Shown here: one piece after another, positions 24,591-39,379 of the stretch | Position numbering within the stretch: the stretch's first letter is position 1 | How the letters are laid out: every line of letters begins with the position of its first letter | Made by a program: the position numbers and the translations under genes | Assembly (NCBI RefSeq): GCF_000970685.1 | Contig: NZ_LAJB01000011.1 | Span: 1-64,000 of the forward strand | Direction: 5' to 3' | DNA length: 64,000 nucleotides | Source of the DNA: Domibacillus indicus | GTDB taxonomy: Bacteria > Bacillota > Bacilli > Bacillales > Domibacillaceae | The notes under the pieces: model-generated | Database searches by the model: none | What the model saw: the letters and a program-made list of their open reading frames with translations, nothing else | Told to the model about the DNA's origin: nothing

Positions 24591-24627
24591 TAAAAGCGTC
24601 CTGGTCCTATGGATCCGGGCGCTTTTA
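24591..24627. terminator. Shared terminator between convergent genes
   Basis: Arms TAAAAGCGTCC / GGGCGCTTTTA form a stem with wobble pairs between the dedA (+) and lipid kinase (-) genes. T-rich ends on both strands suggest bidirectional termination. Confidence 0.65.
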
Positions 24628-25509
24628 TATGGAACAAACAAAGCGGAGATGTTTTTTCTTCACCCGGCAGACAGAGGGTGTAACTGTATATACTTCCCCA
24701 TCCATATCAATTCGCATCGGCCTGTCTGTTGCAATAGTAAAAGACTGTACCCGGTAATGTTCAAGGTTAACCGCATGTTCACCAGTTGCTTTTATTTTTT
24801 CAGTCTGAATCACTTCTTTAATAAGTGGGAATCCTGATTCTTTTACAAGAATAAGATCCAGATAGCCGTCTTCATGGCTTGCTTTAAAAGGCAAATTAAC
24901 AGTACCGATATGATTCCCATTTAACGCTATTGCCATTACGGCATCTCCTTCAAGTTTCATACCGTCCGCTTCAATCATATAATGAAAAAAAGAAGGATTG
25001 CGAATACTCTCCAGGGCACTTAAATAGTAGCTTATTTTTCCCATAAGCTTTTTTTTGCTTTCATCAATATTGTCCGATGTTTGGGTAATCATGCCGATTC
25101 CCCAAAAATTCACAAAATAGCGGTCATTCATAAAACCAAGGTCTACCTCACGAATTATTCCTGTATTCAGCAGACGGCAGGCTGCATCAATTTCTTCAGG
25201 CACACCAATCGCCCGGCTGAAATCATTGCATGTTCCGCCAGGCAGCACAGCGACAACCGGCCTGTTTTTTAACCGGGCAATGCCATTTACACATTCATGA
25301 ATGGTTCCATCGCCGCCATAGAGAATAATAACATCATAATTGTGTCCCTGTTCGATGCAAATTTTTTCTCCTTCTCCCGGTACGGAAATAAGCTGTTCCT
25401 CTACGTATTCGACTGCTTCTTTTAACACAGGAATGATTTGTTCCGTAATTGGCACTGTTCCTTTGCCTGCTTGCTCATTATATAAGAGAAGCCCTTTTTT
25501 AAAATGCAT
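24625..25509 (-). CDS. ytlR: Diacylglycerol/lipid kinase family protein (YtlR-like)
   Basis: A 294-residue DAGK_cat/LCB5-type lipid kinase. The nucleotide-binding ILYGGDGTIHECVNG (about 60-74) and LPGGTCNDFSRAIG (about 88-101) are clear, with a beta-sandwich C-terminal domain. Such enzymes phosphorylate diacylglycerol or similar lipids at the membrane. It resembles YtlR, though substrate assignment is weak. GGAGG precedes the ATG, 18 nt after a 53-residue ORF. An ECF sigma (SigW-like) promoter lies at 25720-25746. Confidence 0.87.
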   Translation of the reverse strand: MHFKKGLLLYNEQAGKGTVPITEQIIPVLKEAVEYVEEQLISVPGEGEKICIEQGHNYDVIILYGGDGTIHECVNGIARLKNRPVVAVLPGGTCNDFSRAIGVPEEIDAACRLLNTGIIREVDLGFMNDRYFVNFWGIGMITQTSDNIDESKKKLMGKISYYLSALESIRNPSFFHYMIEADGMKLEGDAVMAIALNGNHIGTVNLPFKASHEDGYLDLILVKESGFPLIKEVIQTEKIKATGEHAVNLEHYRVQSFTIATDRPMRIDMDGEVYTVTPSVCRVKKKHLRFVCSI

Positions 25510-25719: not shown

Positions 25720-25746
25720 ATACGTTATTTATAAAAAAGTGTTTCA
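25720..25746 (-). promoter_or_regulatory. ECF sigma (SigW-type) promoter, lipid kinase unit
   Basis: Minus strand TGAAAC (25741-25746), a 16-bp spacer, CGTAT (25720-25724). This fits the B. subtilis SigW consensus TGAAAC-N16-CGTA. The start codon of the small ORF is about 30 bp downstream. Confidence 0.8.
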
Positions 25747-27860: not shown

Positions 27861-29402
27861 TTAGTAATAACGCCACGACTTTTCGTATACTTCGATCAAA
27901 TTGGGACGAATTAGCGTGTTCGGTTCAAGTGTTGTTCCGTCTTCCATCACCGCGTCTTCGTCTTTTCCGAATTTCGCAAGCGCCGGCAGCATATCGCTCG
28001 TTAAATACTTTGTATCCTTTAAAAGCTTCAACTCTTCTACCTTGATTTCATTCCGCGATGCCAGTACGTATCCCCAGCCGCCAAAGCTCGGAATATCAGC
28101 ATGAAGGTTTTCTGTCTGCAAACCGGCTGCCTGTACAGTCCGGTCAATGGTCCAGTACACTTTCGGAGCGAATACCGGACTTGTTGCCTGTACAATCATG
28201 GCTCCGTCCGGATGCAGGTGATTGCGGACGAGAGAATAAAACTCCTGGGTATAAAGCTTGTTTAACGATTCATTATTTGGATCAGGCAGATCAATGATCA
28301 CCACATCATAAAAGCCCTCCGCCTTTTCCAAAAATTGAAAAGCATCTTCATTTACAATTTTCACGCGTGGATCATCCAGTGCCCCCTCGTTTAAGTCTGT
28401 CAGCAAATGGTTCGTTCGAGCTGTTTGAGTCATAGCCGGATCAAGATCTACCAGCGTTACATCTTTCAGATCGTTGTACTTTACCAATTCACGAACAGCA
28501 AGGCCGTCCCCGCCGCCCAACACGAGAATGCGATCGCGGCGTGCGGCTGCAGCCATTACGGGATGAACAAGAATTTCGTGATAGCGGTATTCATCGGAAG
28601 AGCTGAATTGCAGCTGTCCATCCAAATAAAGTCTTGTATCTCCCTGCTCCCTTGTTAAAATAATCTGCTGATATGCAGTTTGCTCAGAAAAAACAACCGG
28701 GTCTTTATACAGCTTTTGTTCAAAATGAAAAGCCGCTTCTTCTCCAAATAAAGCACCGCTGACCAAAATGATTAAAAATATTATGCCGCTCAGAGCATGA
28801 ACCCAGAAACGCTTTAACTCATGGCGAAACCGGAATACAATCCAGAGAGCTACCGCTACATTGATCAGCGCGACAAGGAACGATGTTTTAACGAGCCCAA
28901 AGTATGGCCGAAGAAGAAACAAAAACAATAATCCGCCAATCAGACCGCCGGCATAATCGGAGAACAAAACCTTTGCCGCACTTTTTTCAAGCGTGACCCC
29001 GATTTCATTCGCTTTCCGGATTAAGATGGGAAGCTCGACCCCTGTTAACGTTCCAACGAGCAGCGTAACTCCATATAAAAACAATGCATCTGTGCCTTCC
29101 GGCAGGTATGCCGTCACCCCAAAGAGCAGCATGGCGGAAAAACCGCCTGCCAGCCCAATTCCATATTCAATCCAAATGAACGAAGCGATCAAATTTCGTG
29201 TCATTTTTTCACTTATGTATGCGCCGATGCCCATTCCGGTTAAAAAAAGAGAGATGGTCAGCGTATATTGCTTTACCCCATCTCCTAAAATGTATGACCC
29301 GAGTGCACCGAACAGCACTTCAAATATAATTCCGCATATGGAAACAATACCTGATGCATAATAAATCGCCCGGCTTTGCCGAAGAGATTCCTGTTCAGTC
29401 AT
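27861..29402 (-). CDS. Membrane-anchored spermidine synthase-like aminopropyltransferase
   Basis: A 513-residue two-part protein. The N-terminal half (about 1-215) has seven or so transmembrane helices; the C-terminal half (about 225-500) is a spermidine synthase fold with LVLGGGDGLAVRELVKY (decarboxylated-SAM site), VDLDPAM and VVIIDLPDPN. B. subtilis SpeE is soluble, so this is the membrane-fused form. It probably moves an aminopropyl group to a polyamine-like or membrane-linked acceptor; the real substrate is unknown. Last gene of the DUF4178-PspA-DUF4247-DUF350 set, 12 nt after DUF350. Confidence 0.88.
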   Translation of the reverse strand: MTEQESLRQSRAIYYASGIVSICGIIFEVLFGALGSYILGDGVKQYTLTISLFLTGMGIGAYISEKMTRNLIASFIWIEYGIGLAGGFSAMLLFGVTAYLPEGTDALFLYGVTLLVGTLTGVELPILIRKANEIGVTLEKSAAKVLFSDYAGGLIGGLLFLFLLRPYFGLVKTSFLVALINVAVALWIVFRFRHELKRFWVHALSGIIFLIILVSGALFGEEAAFHFEQKLYKDPVVFSEQTAYQQIILTREQGDTRLYLDGQLQFSSSDEYRYHEILVHPVMAAAARRDRILVLGGGDGLAVRELVKYNDLKDVTLVDLDPAMTQTARTNHLLTDLNEGALDDPRVKIVNEDAFQFLEKAEGFYDVVIIDLPDPNNESLNKLYTQEFYSLVRNHLHPDGAMIVQATSPVFAPKVYWTIDRTVQAAGLQTENLHADIPSFGGWGYVLASRNEIKVEELKLLKDTKYLTSDMLPALAKFGKDEDAVMEDGTTLEPNTLIRPNLIEVYEKSWRYY

Positions 29403-29414
29403 TCTAACACCGCC

Positions 29415-29810
29415 TTATGTAATTGAGGCGCCAATAACAAACGCCAGACCGACGGATACAGAAAAAGAGACAATACCGACAGCCAGGTTTCCTTTTTTCA
29501 GCTGCTCTTCAACAGAAAAGCCTCTTGTAAGCAGTTCAAACAGCAGATACGCAAGAAGCTGAAGAACCATGCCGAACAATCCCCATATAATCGTCTCACT
29601 AATCGAATCATTATGGAAAATAGAAAATGTCATAATAACACAAATACCGATTATTTTTCCGCCGATTGACAGTGCAACTGCCGCATTATTTCCTTTGATC
29701 TCATCCCAGTCTTTATACTTTCTCGTCATTAATTCAAAAATAACCAGTCCTGCTATAACGACCACAATCGCTGCAGCCCAATATAAAAGAGTAAGCAAAA
29801 ATGGATTCAC
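29415..29810 (-). CDS. DUF350 family membrane protein (YjfL-like)
   Basis: A 131-residue protein with four transmembrane helices in two similar halves (each half has an FE-L-TR motif: IFELMTRKYKDWDEIKGNNAAVALSIG and LFELLTRGFSVEEQLKKGNLAVGIVSFS in pieces). This internal repeat is typical of DUF350/YjfL, which is often found with PspA homologues and polyamine-modifying enzymes. A channel or anchor role is only inferred. It starts 25 nt after the DUF4247 gene. Confidence 0.88.
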   Translation of the reverse strand: MNPFLLTLLYWAAAIVVVIAGLVIFELMTRKYKDWDEIKGNNAAVALSIGGKIIGICVIMTFSIFHNDSISETIIWGLFGMVLQLLAYLLFELLTRGFSVEEQLKKGNLAVGIVSFSVSVGLAFVIGASIT

Positions 29811-29835
29811 CGCTGCATTCCCTCATTTCGTCTTA

Positions 29836-30396
29836 TTATTTTCCTTCTCCTGGCCCGCCGCCGCGGAATGTTGCACCCCGGCCGTAAGAGCCTGATGAAA
29901 AAGTTCCAGTTCCATAATAGCCGCCGCCGGAATAACAATCATCATTATTGTTTCTGCATTTATTAGCCTGTGTCCGCTCCCAGTTTGAGCCGAAGCGGCC
30001 ATTTAACATAGAGCCAAGAAACATTCCGGTAAAAAAGCCAGGATTGTAATGTGTGCGGACAAATTCGTCCTCGGCTACTTCTACAAGGGTCGAGCCGGGA
30101 TTGTCCGGATCTTCCGTTAAGATAATAAATTCATCATCATAAACAAGCACCTGCCGTCCATCTACTGCTTCCCCAACCTGTTCAGGCTCCTGCACATCAA
30201 TAAGTTCAGCTGCTGTATCTGCAAGGCTTTGATCAGTCCGGTAAACCATAGCCCGGTCACTGGCATTTGTACTGCTCTGGACAGCATCAATAAATGTATA
30301 ATTTTCATCAATATAATCGTCCGCTTCCTGCAAGCCGCAGGCAGCCAAAAACAAGACTGCCGCTATCGTCATTGTCAGCCATTTCTTTTTTTTCAT
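29836..30396 (-). CDS. DUF4247 family lipoprotein
   Basis: A 186-residue lipoprotein: MKKKKWLTMTIAAVLFLAACG has a lipobox (LAAC) with the cysteine at 20. The middle part (about 25-120) is acidic, including VEVAEDEFVRTHYNPGFFTG. The tail is glycine/serine/tyrosine-rich and disordered (YSGGGYYGTGTFSSGSYGRG, then RGGGPGEGK). It matches the DUF4247 family that travels with PspA and DUF4178 in Bacilli and actinobacteria. It faces outside the membrane, so it could be the sensor of the set (inference). Confidence 0.85.
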   Translation of the reverse strand: MKKKKWLTMTIAAVLFLAACGLQEADDYIDENYTFIDAVQSSTNASDRAMVYRTDQSLADTAAELIDVQEPEQVGEAVDGRQVLVYDDEFIILTEDPDNPGSTLVEVAEDEFVRTHYNPGFFTGMFLGSMLNGRFGSNWERTQANKCRNNNDDCYSGGGYYGTGTFSSGSYGRGATFRGGGPGEGK

Positions 30397-30421
30397 TATG
30401 AAAACACTCCAAATGAACAGA

Positions 30422-30447
30422 AACGGCCCGCCGCACCGGGCGGGCCG
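30422..30447 (-). other. GC-rich hairpin between pspA and the DUF4247 gene
   Basis: Minus-strand stem GGCCCGCC / GGCGGGCC with loop CGGTGC, followed by GTTTCTGTTCATTT. The tail is not a clean U run. It may be a partial terminator or an mRNA stabiliser that sets PspA higher than the downstream membrane proteins. Confidence 0.55.
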
Positions 30448-30454
30448 CGGTTCC

Positions 30455-31126
30455 TTATTCTTTTCCGAGCTTTTGCTTCAATGCGGCCAGTTCGTCATCC
30501 ACTGCGCTGTTTTTCTTTAAGGCAGCTAATTCATCGTCCAGGCTTCTTGAACCGGCACGTAAGTCTTCGGATGTTTCGGCTTCTGCTTCATACTGCATTA
30601 CTTTTTCTTCCATGCGTTCAAAGCCGCGTTTCGATTCATCACTGCCAACCGATGACATAGCCCGGTTCATTTTCGTTCTTGTTTTTGCTGATTCTGCCCG
30701 GGCTTTTAATGAATCTTTTTTCAGCTGCATTTCTTCGTATTCCCGCTTCATTTCTGACAGCTTTTCACGAAGGGCTGCTGCATCCGCTGCGGCCTGTGCA
30801 TGGGCTTCTTTCATGGATTCCGCCTGCTTGGCGTAATTATTCTTATCCTCAAGCGCACGGCGGGCCAGGTCTTCATTTTCCGCTTCAATCGCGTCGACCG
30901 CCTGCTGCTGGCGCTTTTCAACCATGCTGTTCGCATCTTCGTACTTCTTTTTCAGCATTTTTTCATTTGCAATCTGCTTTGCCACAGCTGTTTCCGCATC
31001 GCGGATATCAGCGGACATCTCCCGCATGAACTGGTCGAGCATTTTTACCGGATCTTCCGCTTTGTCAAGTGCTGCATTTAATTCCGAACCTACATATGTT
31101 CTTACACGCTTAAAAAATTGAAACAT
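30455..31126 (-). CDS. pspA: PspA/IM30 membrane-repair protein
   Basis: A 223-residue PspA/IM30 (ESCRT-III-like) protein, all helical with long coiled coils (about 25-190) and an amphipathic N-terminus MFQFFKRVRTYVGSEL that inserts into stressed membranes. The C-terminus carries two copies of DDELAALK separated by six residues, an unusual tail. PspA assembles into rods and rings that seal or shape leaky membranes. The frame opens at a TTG (31141), but that lies in the RBS (TTGGAGGAG). ATG 31126 fits the family start. Confidence 0.93.
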   Translation of the reverse strand: MFQFFKRVRTYVGSELNAALDKAEDPVKMLDQFMREMSADIRDAETAVAKQIANEKMLKKKYEDANSMVEKRQQQAVDAIEAENEDLARRALEDKNNYAKQAESMKEAHAQAAADAAALREKLSEMKREYEEMQLKKDSLKARAESAKTRTKMNRAMSSVGSDESKRGFERMEEKVMQYEAEAETSEDLRAGSRSLDDELAALKKNSAVDDELAALKQKLGKE

Positions 31127-31146
31127 TTTTTTCTCCTCCAATGTTG

Positions 31147-31656
31147 TTAGCTTCCCGCTAAAATAGTCACTTCGTATTCCTCAATTTCATACCCATAGCT
31201 GACTTCAACATCGCCGCCCCACACTTCCACAGATAAGAAGTGTTCCTCCGAGTCATCGGTGTAATCATAGTAATCCACATTTTTGCCATGGACATTCTCG
31301 CTTCGGCCTTCACCTTTTACATAAGCGCGCCCCTGTTCTTCCAGATAATACGTGCGCCCTTCATGAGATACTTTTTTCGTCCCTGGCTCAAGACCCGGCA
31401 GGCGAATGGTTTCATACATCCCCACTTCAAGCTCATCATCCAGCTCTACACTTAACCAGTGTGTTTTCCCATCTGCCGCCAGCTGATACGCATCCCACGT
31501 GTAGCCGCTGTCATTGTAATGAATTTTTCCTGTTACTTCGTAATCCACCAGATCATACGTAACAAAATCCCCTACACGCAGTGTAAGCAGTGTTCGTTCT
31601 TCCGCTTCCGGCACATTTTCTTCGGTCCCGCCAAAAAGCCGCCTCCAAAAACTCAT
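31147..31656 (-). CDS. DUF4178 family protein, first gene of the Psp-type operon
   Basis: A 169-residue DUF4178 protein. It has a basic N-terminus (MSFWRRLFGG), then a beta-rich domain with LRVGDFVTYDLVDYEVTGKI, followed by YTWDAYQLAADGKTHWLSVE and HFLSVEVWGGDVEVSYGYE. No signal peptide or membrane segment. The family is found next to PspA, DUF350 and spermidine-synthase-like genes, but its activity is unknown. RBS GAGGTG. A SigW-type promoter is only about 20 bp upstream, giving a very short leader. Confidence 0.85.
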   Translation of the reverse strand: MSFWRRLFGGTEENVPEAEERTLLTLRVGDFVTYDLVDYEVTGKIHYNDSGYTWDAYQLAADGKTHWLSVELDDELEVGMYETIRLPGLEPGTKKVSHEGRTYYLEEQGRAYVKGEGRSENVHGKNVDYYDYTDDSEEHFLSVEVWGGDVEVSYGYEIEEYEVTILAGS

Positions 31657-31677
31657 TTGTTTTTCACCTCACTCTAT

Positions 31678-31704
31678 GTACGAGCATTTTAAAGGAAAGT
31701 TTCA
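31678..31704 (-). promoter_or_regulatory. ECF sigma (SigW-type) promoter of the PspA operon
   Basis: Minus strand TGAAAC (31699-31704), a 16-bp spacer, CGTAC (31678-31682), immediately followed by the RBS and DUF4178 start. In B. subtilis the pspA-containing ydjFGHI operon is also in the SigW regulon. Confidence 0.88.
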
Positions 31705-34874: not shown

Positions 34875-35489
34875 TTAATTGTTAATATACTTTTCAAATA
34901 CGGCACCAAAGTCTTTTACACGGTATTCTTCACTCGTTTTTTTCAGCCAGTCAAAGGCATACGCGTTCACCTTTTCAAACTCAGCTGCCAGATCAATTTG
35001 TGTTTTCGTAATGTTTTTAATTGAATTGGCCGACATATCCAGGCTCTGCTGGGCATAACCAAGATACATTTCATTCTCTCGCTGCATATCCGCAATTTTC
35101 AAAAGAGCTTTGTATAGATCTTTTAATTCTTCCAAATGTTTTTTGTGTACATCAATCGAATAGGTTTCATTGCCAAGAGAAAACTTAATTTCCACATCAA
35201 GATCAACTGTCCCGGCCGTTTCAAGATACACATTTGAGACACGGTTTGTGGAATAGTTATAGCGGCGGAGCATCCGCTTTTTGCTGACCGCATTGGCCCC
35301 GTCTACATGAACAAGCCCTAAATTGGTAAAGCAGTATTCGTCTGCTTTTGACTTGATGAGAAAATAAATTTTCTCGTTGTCTTCATGCATAATATAATCG
35401 TCTGCATCTACTTTATCGTAATCTGCCGGCTTAATCACCGCTCCAACATCACTTAACCCTAATACATCTGCTGCTACTTTTCCAAACAT
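34875..35489 (-). CDS. yvbH: YvbH-like bacterial PH-domain protein
   Basis: A 204-residue protein closely following B. subtilis YvbH. The N-terminal bacterial pleckstrin-homology domain (about 1-125; DADDYIMHEDNEKIYFLIK, DEYCFTNLGLVHVDG) is followed by a C-terminal helical YvbH-like oligomerisation region (about 140-204) ending in VFEKYINN. Such bPH proteins sit at stressed membranes in other Bacilli, but the function is unknown. ATG 35489 has AAGGAG. A SigW-type promoter is 36 bp upstream of the start. Confidence 0.9.
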   Translation of the reverse strand: MFGKVAADVLGLSDVGAVIKPADYDKVDADDYIMHEDNEKIYFLIKSKADEYCFTNLGLVHVDGANAVSKKRMLRRYNYSTNRVSNVYLETAGTVDLDVEIKFSLGNETYSIDVHKKHLEELKDLYKALLKIADMQRENEMYLGYAQQSLDMSANSIKNITKTQIDLAAEFEKVNAYAFDWLKKTSEEYRVKDFGAVFEKYINN

Positions 35490-35524
35490 CGTCCCATCTC
35501 CTTTTTTACGAATCATATTAGTAA

Positions 35525-35551
35525 TTACGGCTTTCCTTTTAAAAAGTTTCA
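35525..35551 (-). promoter_or_regulatory. ECF sigma (SigW-type) promoter of yvbH
   Basis: Minus strand TGAAAC (35546-35551), a 16-bp spacer, CGTAA (35525-35529). Same spacing and hexamers as the sites at 25.7 and 31.7 kb. Confidence 0.82.
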
Positions 35552-35604
35552 ATTTTTATATGGCATAGCCGCTTTCTTTTTTAGAATGCGCGCTGCCGGC
35601 CAAT

Positions 35605-37467: not shown

Positions 37468-38271
37468 CTACAGCACTCCTTTCTTCCGCGTGCCGGTCAC
37501 AATCATCATCACAATCATAATTAAAATTAAAAAGACCGCAATGGTTGCACCCATTCCCCAATCCTGTGTAACAAGGAAATGCTGTTCAATTGCTGTTCCC
37601 AGCGTAATGACCCGGTTGCCCGCAATCAGCCTTGTCATCATGAATAAGGACAGGGCGGGAATAAAGACAGCCTGCACTCCCGCTTTTACACCTGATGATG
37701 TCAGCGGGAAAATCACTTTAAGGAATGTTGCCCAGAAAGATGCGCCAAGATCGCGCGATGCATAAATAAGAGCTGGATTCAGCTTATCAAGTGCATTAAA
37801 AATAGGCAGAATCATAAAAGGAATAAATATGTAAACCGATACAAAAACAAAGCTGAAATCGGTAAACAAAATTTGCCTCGCTCCTATGCCAACTGTTTCC
37901 AGAAGGCTGTTCGCGGCACCGTATGTACTGAAAATACCGAGAAATGCATATGCTTTTAGCAGCAGGTTCACCCAGGACGGCAAGATAATTAACAGCAGCA
38001 AAAGCTGCTTATATTTTGAATGGGTAATAAAGTAAGCAGCCGGATACGCAATAATCAAGCAAAAAAACGTGATAAGGAACGCATACCAGAATGAGCTGAG
38101 TGCCATCGTTAAATACACAGGCGTAAAAAAGTTTTGATAGTTGGCAAAAGTAAAATTGCCATTCAGGTCGAAAAACGAATAGTAAACAATAAGCAAAAGA
38201 GGCGCAACGACAAATAGGGCAATCCATAATACGTAAGGAATCCAGTAAAACGTGCGATTATTTGCCTGCAT
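37468..38271 (-). CDS. potB: Spermidine/putrescine permease PotB
   Basis: A 267-residue permease with six transmembrane helices and an EAA loop ([20 protein letters not shown]). The frame is open 20 codons further upstream inside potA, but ATG 38271 has GGGAGG at 8 nt and gives the usual short N-terminus. It overlaps the end of potA by 14 nt. Confidence 0.93.
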
Positions 38272-39379
38272 TCTGCCCGCCTCCCGCACTGTAGCTTTCG
38301 AGGCGCCTGTTAAACTCTTCCTGCGTCTCATTCAGGCGCATAACATGAATGGCTTCCGGTTCAAAATCAAGACCGACCGTATCTCCGACAACTGCTTTTT
38401 TTGTTGAGTGGACGAGCCACTCGTTTCCATCTGCGTCATAGCAGCAAATTTCGTAATGAACACCCCGGAACAGCTGGGAATCTACTTTTGCTTGAATTTT
38501 ACCTGACTCGGCGGCCGTTACAGCCAGGTCTTCCGGACGGATGATGACCTCAACCGGCTCGTTTGGACGCAGCCCTTTATCGACGCATTCAAAACGGCGG
38601 CCGGCAAATTCCACTTCAAAATCCTGAAACATCACCCCGTCAATAATATTTGACTCTCCGATGAAATCCGCGACAAACCGGTTGATTGGCTCATCATAAA
38701 TGTCAGTCGGCGTCCCGCTCTGCTGGATTATCCCTTCGTTTAACACAATGATTTCGTCACTCATTGCCAGTGCCTCTTCCTGATCGTGTGTAACAAAGAT
38801 AAACGTAATGCCGAGGCGCTGCTGAAGCTCCCGCAATTCATACTGCATTTCTGTACGCAGCTTTAAATCAAGCGCTGATAATGGCTCATCCAGTAAGATA
38901 ACCTGCGGTTCATTGACAATGGCACGGGCGATAGCGACACGCTGCTTTTGGCCGCCGGACATTTCCGACAGCTCCCTGCTTTCATACCCCGGCAGATTCA
39001 CAAATTTCAACGCTTCTTTTACTTTTGCATCAATTTCTGCTTTTCTCATTTTTTTAATGCGCAGCCCAAACGCGATATTTTCATAAACATTTAAATGAGG
39101 AAATAAGGCATAATCCTGGAAGACTGTGTTTACCTGCCGTTTATTAGCCGGCACGTGATTTATCCGCTCCCCATTAAAAAACACATCCCCCGAAGTGGGC
39201 TCTATAAATCCAGCGATAATCCGCAGTATGGTTGTTTTTCCGCATCCCGACGGACCGAGAAGGGTATAAAATTTTCCTCTTTCCATATCGAAACTGACTT
39301 CATTTAACACACGCTCATTCGGTCCATAAGCTTTTGTTACCCGGTCGAACCGGATAATGCTGTCTCTGGTCACACTCAT
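38258..39379 (-). CDS. potA: Spermidine/putrescine ABC ATPase PotA
   Basis: A 373-residue ABC ATPase with Walker [13 protein letters not shown]-loop [11 protein letters not shown], signature [17 protein letters not shown], Walker [13 protein letters not shown], switch H in FVTHDQEEA, and a C-terminal TOBE domain (about 290-360). It powers polyamine import through PotBC. First gene of the operon. A -10 TATAAT is visible about 45 bp upstream at roughly 39424-39429, but its -35 is weak. Confidence 0.95.

Follow-up and report, generated by a model that had tools for sequence, protein, structure and literature searches.

A C-terminal lysine tail that covaries with a membrane-fused aminopropyltransferase suggests a possible protein substrate in a PspA/DUF350 operon of Domibacillus indicus

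Results

We analysed a stretch of 64,000 nucleotides from Domibacillus indicus (assembly GCF_000970685.1, contig NZ_LAJB01000011.1, positions 1 to 64,000; hereafter the window), with the focus on an operon that places a membrane-bound aminopropyltransferase beside a lipoprotein ending in lysine. The operon comprises five adjoining minus-strand genes separated by short gaps. It begins with a DUF4178 protein (31147..31656; Pfam PF13785, 4.6e-33), in which neither a signal nor a helix was seen and which is predicted to be cytoplasmic, followed by a PspA/IM30 family protein (30455..31126; PF04012 (PspA_IM30), 4.3e-45). The longest open reading frame (ORF) of the latter opens with TTG at 31141; the better start is the ATG at 31126, located 3' of a GGAGG. 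The third gene encodes a DUF4247 lipoprotein (29836..30396; PF14042, 1.2e-14) with the lipobox LAAC and a Gly/Ser/Arg-rich tail, whose last codons (29836..29862) encode the invariant C-terminal tail, here GGGPGEGK, plus stop. Next follow a DUF350 membrane protein with a GTG start (29415..29810; PF03994, 8e-36) and a spermidine-synthase-type aminopropyltransferase of 513 residues fused to seven predicted transmembrane helices (27861..29402; PF01564, NCBIfam NF002956), termed 7TM-APT. Between 27861 and 31656 there are no additional minus-strand ORFs of at least 80 residues, hence no CesT/Tir-type gene beside PspA, and none of the five genes matched an ATP-grasp family. ORF coordinates and Pfam matches thus agree with a first-pass annotation of this DNA, which had listed five same-strand genes with these domains.

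Upstream of the operon lies a putative SigW/extracytoplasmic function (ECF)-type promoter (31679..31704, minus strand) of the form TGAAAC-N16-CGTA, which corresponds to the SigW consensus. Sites of this type (spacing 14-18) occur three times in the window, against 0.46 expected, a number reached by 3 of 100 shuffles. Among Bacilli, 21 of 25 five-gene operons are preceded by the motif, but none of the three loci without DUF4178 and PspA, and it was absent upstream of the remaining DUF4247-bearing loci scanned; the earlier annotation of one operon under a SigW-type promoter is supported. The other two sites in the window, likewise on the minus strand, precede a lipid kinase gene (site 25721-25746, gene 24625-25509) and coincide with the annotated beginning of a bacterial PH-domain/YvbH-like gene (site 35526-35551, gene 34875-35552), which probably starts further in.

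Patterns derived from five enzymes retrieved at least 583 confirmed relatives from the genome collection, among which soluble relatives may be included. The best 80 of these, three other loci and the window constitute a sample of 84 loci (numbered with L below), of which L038 and L099 represent one contig, leaving 83 distinct loci and 77 distinct among the 78 with a tail protein; L035, identical to L090, is not counted within the 84. The closest named relative of 7TM-APT among the loci compared is that of Domibacillus robiginosus (87%). Within 5 kb of the enzyme gene, DUF350 is encoded at 75 loci, DUF4178 at 72 and DUF4247 at 51, followed by SpeD and PspA (33 each), an amine-oxidase-like gene (20) and a K+ channel (7). 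From these counts, the core of the system consists of the enzyme, DUF350, DUF4178 and an exported tail protein, with PspA as a frequent extra. The set recurs across genera and phyla, so that the first-pass annotation withstood the refutation that it had named, a lack of conserved co-occurrence across genera. PspA, listed there as one of the five members, is optional. Among 149 sampled Bacillota genomes, 7TM-APT exceeded the cut-off in five, and DUF4247 was detected in seven, those five included. The K+ channel gene (L036, L037, L038, L088, L094, L099, L119) mostly lies just downstream of the enzyme in Clostridia-type operons.

Other neighbours in the window do not belong to the conserved unit. 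PotABCD and two lipid kinases do lie near the operon as previously annotated, but in the 83 other loci, 55 of which hold at least 8 kb upstream, a lipid kinase was found 4 times, cardiolipin synthase 4 times, PotA twice and PotD never, and a PotABCD link is not supported by these counts. They also bear on the idea that aminopropyl groups are added to a membrane lipid, or to an acceptor linked to one, and that surface charge is thereby changed. Such a function would suit the membrane fusion, the SigW-type promoter, and the cardiolipin synthase and lipid kinases nearby in the window. However, lipid genes accompany the enzyme at just 4 of 83 other loci and the lysine tail would be left unexplained, which makes this function very improbable; nothing was found that speaks for the membrane-linked acceptor suggested earlier being a lipid.

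7TM-APT matched PF01564 (Spermine_synth) with 7.2e-39 (133.7 bits, cut-off 22.9) and NF002956 (PRK03612) over residues 4-511 with 608.5 bits (cut-off 472). Its helices occupy approximately residues 11-220 and its catalytic domain residues 221-513. Seven residues, namely D299 (the acid of GGGDG), D371, D374, Q245, Q265, D321 and D353, align with soluble SpeE, and D299 together with the DxxDP aspartates D371 and D374 is kept in all 78 tail-linked enzymes. The protein retains the residues of aminopropyltransferases that use decarboxylated S-adenosylmethionine (dcSAM), and the corresponding activity is predicted. In soluble SpeE, the Tyr of a PTYPSGxW-like loop binds putrescine. On this acceptor side, Tyr was present in 20 of 25 soluble SpeE proteins, whereas all 16 7TM enzymes compared have Phe and a 2-residue gap (F440 in the window); we therefore use the label "aminopropyltransferase" and not "spermidine synthase". 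Unlike soluble SpeE, 7TM-APT also carries a C-terminal extension with conserved residues of its own. The host genome encodes a canonical SpeE and two SpeD-type matches, so dcSAM should be available. Furthermore, SpeD is present in 36 of 40 genomes with 7TM-APT, and where 7TM-APT is the sole PF01564 match (6 of 24 genomes), SpeD accompanies it in five of the six.

These features bear on two further explanations. Anchored in the membrane, the enzyme might make a free polyamine (spermidine, spermine or a related one), which the lipoprotein and DUF350 would bind or move. Its sequence family, its NCBIfam name ("polyamine aminopropyltransferase"), the catalytic residues common to 7TM-APT and SpeE, and the occurrence of orphan enzyme copies without a tail protein all speak for this function. 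Nevertheless, we judge it quite unlikely, as a canonical SpeE already exists in the genome, the acceptor side is unlike that of SpeE (F440, the 2-residue gap and the C-terminal extension) and the invariant C-terminal lysine of the partner would have no explanation. Alternatively, the protein might be an S-adenosylmethionine (SAM)-dependent methyltransferase like the fungal 7TM N-terminal histidine methyltransferase (NHMT), which shares the architecture of seven helices and a SpeE-like domain according to the excerpted text of its description (PMC10349129). The same excerpt names the acid within GxG(D/E)G as the hallmark of enzymes that use dcSAM and reports its loss in the fungal enzyme. Its retention in 78 of 78 tail-linked enzymes, together with SpeD within 5 kb at 33 of 84 loci and in 36 of 40 genomes, renders a methyltransferase extremely unlikely; as a principal explanation it was rejected in view of the retained D299 and of SpeD, which most of the genomes encode.

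The last eight residues follow GGGxxxGK in 52 of 52 DUF4247 proteins detected at enzyme loci by our own profile, which was built on full-length proteins, tail included (50 of 50 without identical ones), and in 22 of 22 Pfam PF14042 proteins of the window's family, all 22 with 7TM-APT adjacent. An alignment of 32 DUF4247 sequences contains only seven invariant columns, and five of them belong to the tail (its four conserved G and the K). When the tail pattern was searched in frame at the DNA level, it occurred at 27 places in 24 genomes of the window's family, 22 of them at DUF4247 genes. Both lysine codons are used (AAA 39, AAG 11) and the glycine codons vary, which argues that selection acts on the protein. 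Other lysines are rare near the tail: the K:R ratio in the 40 residues ahead of the last one is 54:162, against 452:353 in the body of the proteins and 17506:10500 in other ORFs, and 43 of 50 tails have no second lysine in the 20 residues preceding the last. As background, 144 of 1270 other ORFs of these loci end in lysine. Three Actinobacterial DUF4247 proteins at enzyme loci end in GTK, GTK and DGK. In many Bacillaceae DUF4247 lipoproteins, that of the window included, a cysteine pair (C-x5/6-C-Y), possibly forming a disulfide, is located just ahead of the tail. The PotA-like ATPase of the window (38258-39379, minus strand) also ends in GGGQNAGK; no such tail outside DUF4247 was found on the readable ORFs checked in 23 family relatives, and that of PotA is probably due to chance because it is not repeated there.

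A lysine tail also occurs on other carriers. In total, 78 of 84 loci encode a protein ending in GK (63) or HK (15), a count that is biased because this ending was itself the search pattern; the same stretches yielded four unrelated hydrophobic ORFs with such an end. At 27 loci without DUF4247 by our own profile, the GK or HK tail is borne by another protein, of 46-246 residues in 22 cases (longest ORF, as for several of the tail-protein lengths) and of approximately 500 residues in five, four of which are labelled or recognisable as DUF4178 proteins. The six loci without such a tail are two contig ends (L067, L114), a 3-kb contig (L128), and L113, L117 and L118, which do not have DUF350 or DUF4178. 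Less biased counts come from the DUF4247 proteins found by profile and from a hold-out of plasmids and chromids, which covered 7 of 12 full-length plasmid matches, the other five being omitted as likely near-copies from the same genus. Here, a C-terminal lysine was found in 7 of 7 and GK or HK in 6 of 7, including Ensifer (GGGPESGK) and an Alteromonas lipoprotein (PSSGK); for Tritonibacter (L315), the GK/HK search was empty, and a 64-residue hydrophobic ORF ending in NRVK was chosen afterwards. The tail ORF lies on the opposite strand in L313 and downstream in L316. The latter, on an Alteromonas plasmid, is rearranged and comprises the enzyme, speD, a small gene, a toxic-anion-resistance gene, DUF4178, a long lipoprotein ending in SSGK, and DUF350. 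In Clostridia and relatives, proteins of 340-398 residues (L089, L096, L100, L103, L106-L109, L120, L124, L132) look like natural fusions, with a DUF4178-like start and one helix followed by DUF4247 with the GGGxxxGK tail.

Natural loss of the enzyme also bears on its link with the tail. DUF4247 was present in 82 of 398 genomes of the class; 82 loci from 81 genomes were read, with one place (G410:C26) lying outside the sample, and L282 (frameshift-like, the frame runs on) and L303 (partial) were excluded from residue counts and tree. All 14 DUF4247 loci with an adjacent 7TM-APT end in GK (13 GGGxxxGK, 1 SGGPHAGK), as compared with none of the 68 without. The final residue of the 69 readable DUF4247 proteins without the enzyme is R in 64 cases, K in 4 and H in 1, and their last eight residues contain 4.1 K+R, versus 1.0 in the 14 with 7TM-APT. 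On a tree of the DUF4247 domain computed without the tail columns, enzyme state equals tail state in 119 of 119 proteins. Three loci (L235, L237 and L263) have DUF4247 genes in tandem together with DUF4178, and no nearby match to the enzyme, DUF350 or PspA.

This covariation points to the C-terminal lysine of the lipoprotein as the candidate acceptor. It would be explained equally well if the lysine, which resembles the end of a diamine, were a docking or pseudo-substrate element occupying the acceptor pocket, so that the enzyme stays off until stress pulls the lipoprotein away and free polyamine is then made at the membrane. We regard such docking as unlikely, as the strongly cationic readable tails of proteins without the enzyme fit modification better than inhibition, and so do the sister ligase operons discussed below, whose partners carry a matching C-terminal residue of their own (GG in 10 of 11).

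Where modification of the lysine might take place was assessed from predicted topology. The mean hydropathy of 84 homologues fits seven helices in the 7TM domain, in keeping with the approximately seven annotated at first; six peaks exceed the threshold, and two of these have room for a pair of helices, provided that the weak second peak is counted as one. With helix borders placed by eye, the loops after helices 2, 4 and 6 (50 residues) contain on average 9.35 K+R, versus 1.89 in those after helices 1, 3 and 5 (34 residues), and this bias holds in each of the 84 sequences. Loop charges and seven helices together would therefore place the catalytic domain outside the cell, on the same side as the tail. 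The latter should also be external, because in 72 of 78 carriers it follows a single hydrophobic segment or lipoprotein signal (below the cut-off in six). Furthermore, the amine-oxidase matches at 18 loci, left from 20 after those at L088 and L094 were judged unrelated and dropped, show 13 twin-arginine type signals, 2 RK variants and 3 unreadable starts when inspected by eye; such export signals also fit a predicted chemistry outside the cell.

Discussion

Taken together, we propose that the operon could be an envelope-stress module in which 7TM-APT aminopropylates the C-terminal lysine of the DUF4247 lipoprotein from dcSAM, a proposal drawn from comparative sequence analysis to which we give an even chance. 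The aminopropyl group of dcSAM would be transferred to the side-chain amine of the lysine ending the GGGxxxGK-COOH tail. Because the side chain of lysine, like putrescine, presents an amine on four carbons, the reaction would match that of spermidine synthase; the tail, flexible and rich in Gly, would allow the residue to enter the active site. The modified lipoprotein would then bear a cationic tip resembling a polyamine, able to bind anionic lipids or wall polymers. SigW would turn the module on under envelope stress, while PspA would work on the inner face of the membrane. Since loop charges would place both tail and catalytic domain outside, dcSAM would have to cross the membrane, perhaps via the 7TM domain or DUF350.

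Several observations weigh against this proposal, in addition to the search bias in the tail count mentioned above. First, the absence of the enzyme was established by whole-genome search in two genomes (G066, G105), with a match to a SpeE-like part only, and by reading beside the DUF4247 gene in all others. The tree needs three changes of state, two forced by well-supported branches, which is too few for a sign test, and within the class sample enzyme-bearing and enzyme-less states never occur in the same family; the statistical weight of the losses is therefore limited. Second, dcSAM is made inside the cell, and an outside catalytic domain has no known dcSAM supply. Likewise, the ligases of the E. 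coli sister operons discussed below have no known membrane part. A scarcity of cysteine, which might mark an exported domain, is true of Bacilli but not of Clostridia. Third, 4 of 40 enzyme-bearing genomes, two of them tail-bearing, have no SpeD match, although their assemblies may be incomplete. Finally, L113, L117, L118 and the short contig L128 carry the enzyme without a tail protein. Changed acceptor residues had been expected in these orphan enzymes, yet of 57 near-invariant positions just 4 differ. At these loci the enzyme may use a different acceptor, which speaks mildly against the tail as the only one.

A broader and more tentative version, possible but in our estimate less probable than its core, is that of a widespread extracytoplasmic modification. 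Fed with dcSAM via its own helices or DUF350, 7TM-APT would attach at least one aminopropyl group to the lysine that ends a dedicated lipoprotein or one-helix protein, and in some Gram-negative operons an amine oxidase with a twin-arginine type signal may subsequently process the product. Aminopropyl-lysine, C-terminal Gly-spermidine and an encoded Arg tail might then represent three routes by which exported tails of one kind acquire a polycationic tip.

If lysine modification holds true, it would constitute a protein modification that uses decarboxylated SAM, would explain SpeD genes in genomes where the 7TM form is the only aminopropyltransferase match, and would connect envelope stress with the chemistry of polyamines; if the reaction takes place outside the cell, a dcSAM transporter would be implied in addition. 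The substrate question becomes testable, as a near-invariant lysine that tracks the enzyme can be addressed by mass spectrometry of one small lipoprotein.

The operon class itself has already been described. In the text available from Ravi et al. 2024 (PMC11237479), operons with a 7TM-synthase, PspA, DUF350, a lipoprotein and DUF4178 are reported, for which polyamine monitoring or "aminopropylation of other substrates" was proposed. According to the same excerpt, their second CesT/Tir-PspA group (for example AAN56744-AAN56747) has PspA, the 7TM-synthase, DUF350, the lipoprotein and DUF4178 in common with the window, whereas the latter does not have the CesT/Tir (DUF2170-like) gene and has a DUF4247 lipoprotein in place of the Ctha_1186 domain. 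That excerpt contained no mention of a C-terminal lysine tail, of enzyme covariation or of a protein acceptor. Nor was the lysine tail mentioned in the accessible portions of the literature on PspA/DUF350/DUF4178/DUF4247, aminopropyl-lysine, YgiC/YjfC and DUF1190, subscription papers mostly lying outside this set. The operon, named in the first-pass annotation as the best candidate in the window for a little-described system, belongs to a class already in print, whose substrate was left open in the text consulted. The new part is the likely protein substrate, with its C-terminal lysine.

Polyamine-derived lysines exist in other proteins. In eIF5A, deoxyhypusine arises in the cytosol by addition of an aminobutyl group from spermidine. 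Diatom silaffins, as far as the excerpt of PMC4557024 shows, have lysines bearing aminopropyl or other polyamine chains, like the tail proposed here, and the modifying enzyme is not named there. The fungal NHMT resembles 7TM-APT in combining seven helices with a SpeE-like domain and in modifying secreted proteins at a terminus; it differs in using SAM as donor without the GxG(D/E)G acid and in acting on the N-terminus in the endoplasmic reticulum, and its 7TM sequence was found in filamentous fungi plus one unclassified fungus (PMC10349129, excerpted text).

A further parallel is provided by the E. coli operons yjfIJKLMC and ygiBC, whose YjfC and YgiC are named peptide-spermidine ligases in the RefSeq record. 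As in the window, yjfIJKLMC has a polyamine enzyme beside PspA, DUF350 and an exported protein whose tail is rich in Gly, Ser and Arg, while ygiBC pairs an exported DUF1190 protein with the ligase. These operons differ in having an ATP-grasp ligase in place of the 7TM aminopropyltransferase, and Gly-Gly rather than GK at the end of the partner. Among 11 DUF1190 partners, comprising 9 of the 25 matches listed (6 with an annotated ligase next door, 3 without annotation) and the two E. coli K-12 genes, 10 end in GG (L317, L318, L320-L325, and YjfM and YgiB, L308 and L309) and one from Vibrio (L319) in GS. A ligase acting on a carboxylate would fit this glycine end. We thus propose a simple rule, in which the ligase goes with a tail ending in GG, the 7TM enzyme with one ending in K, and neither of them with one ending in RR.

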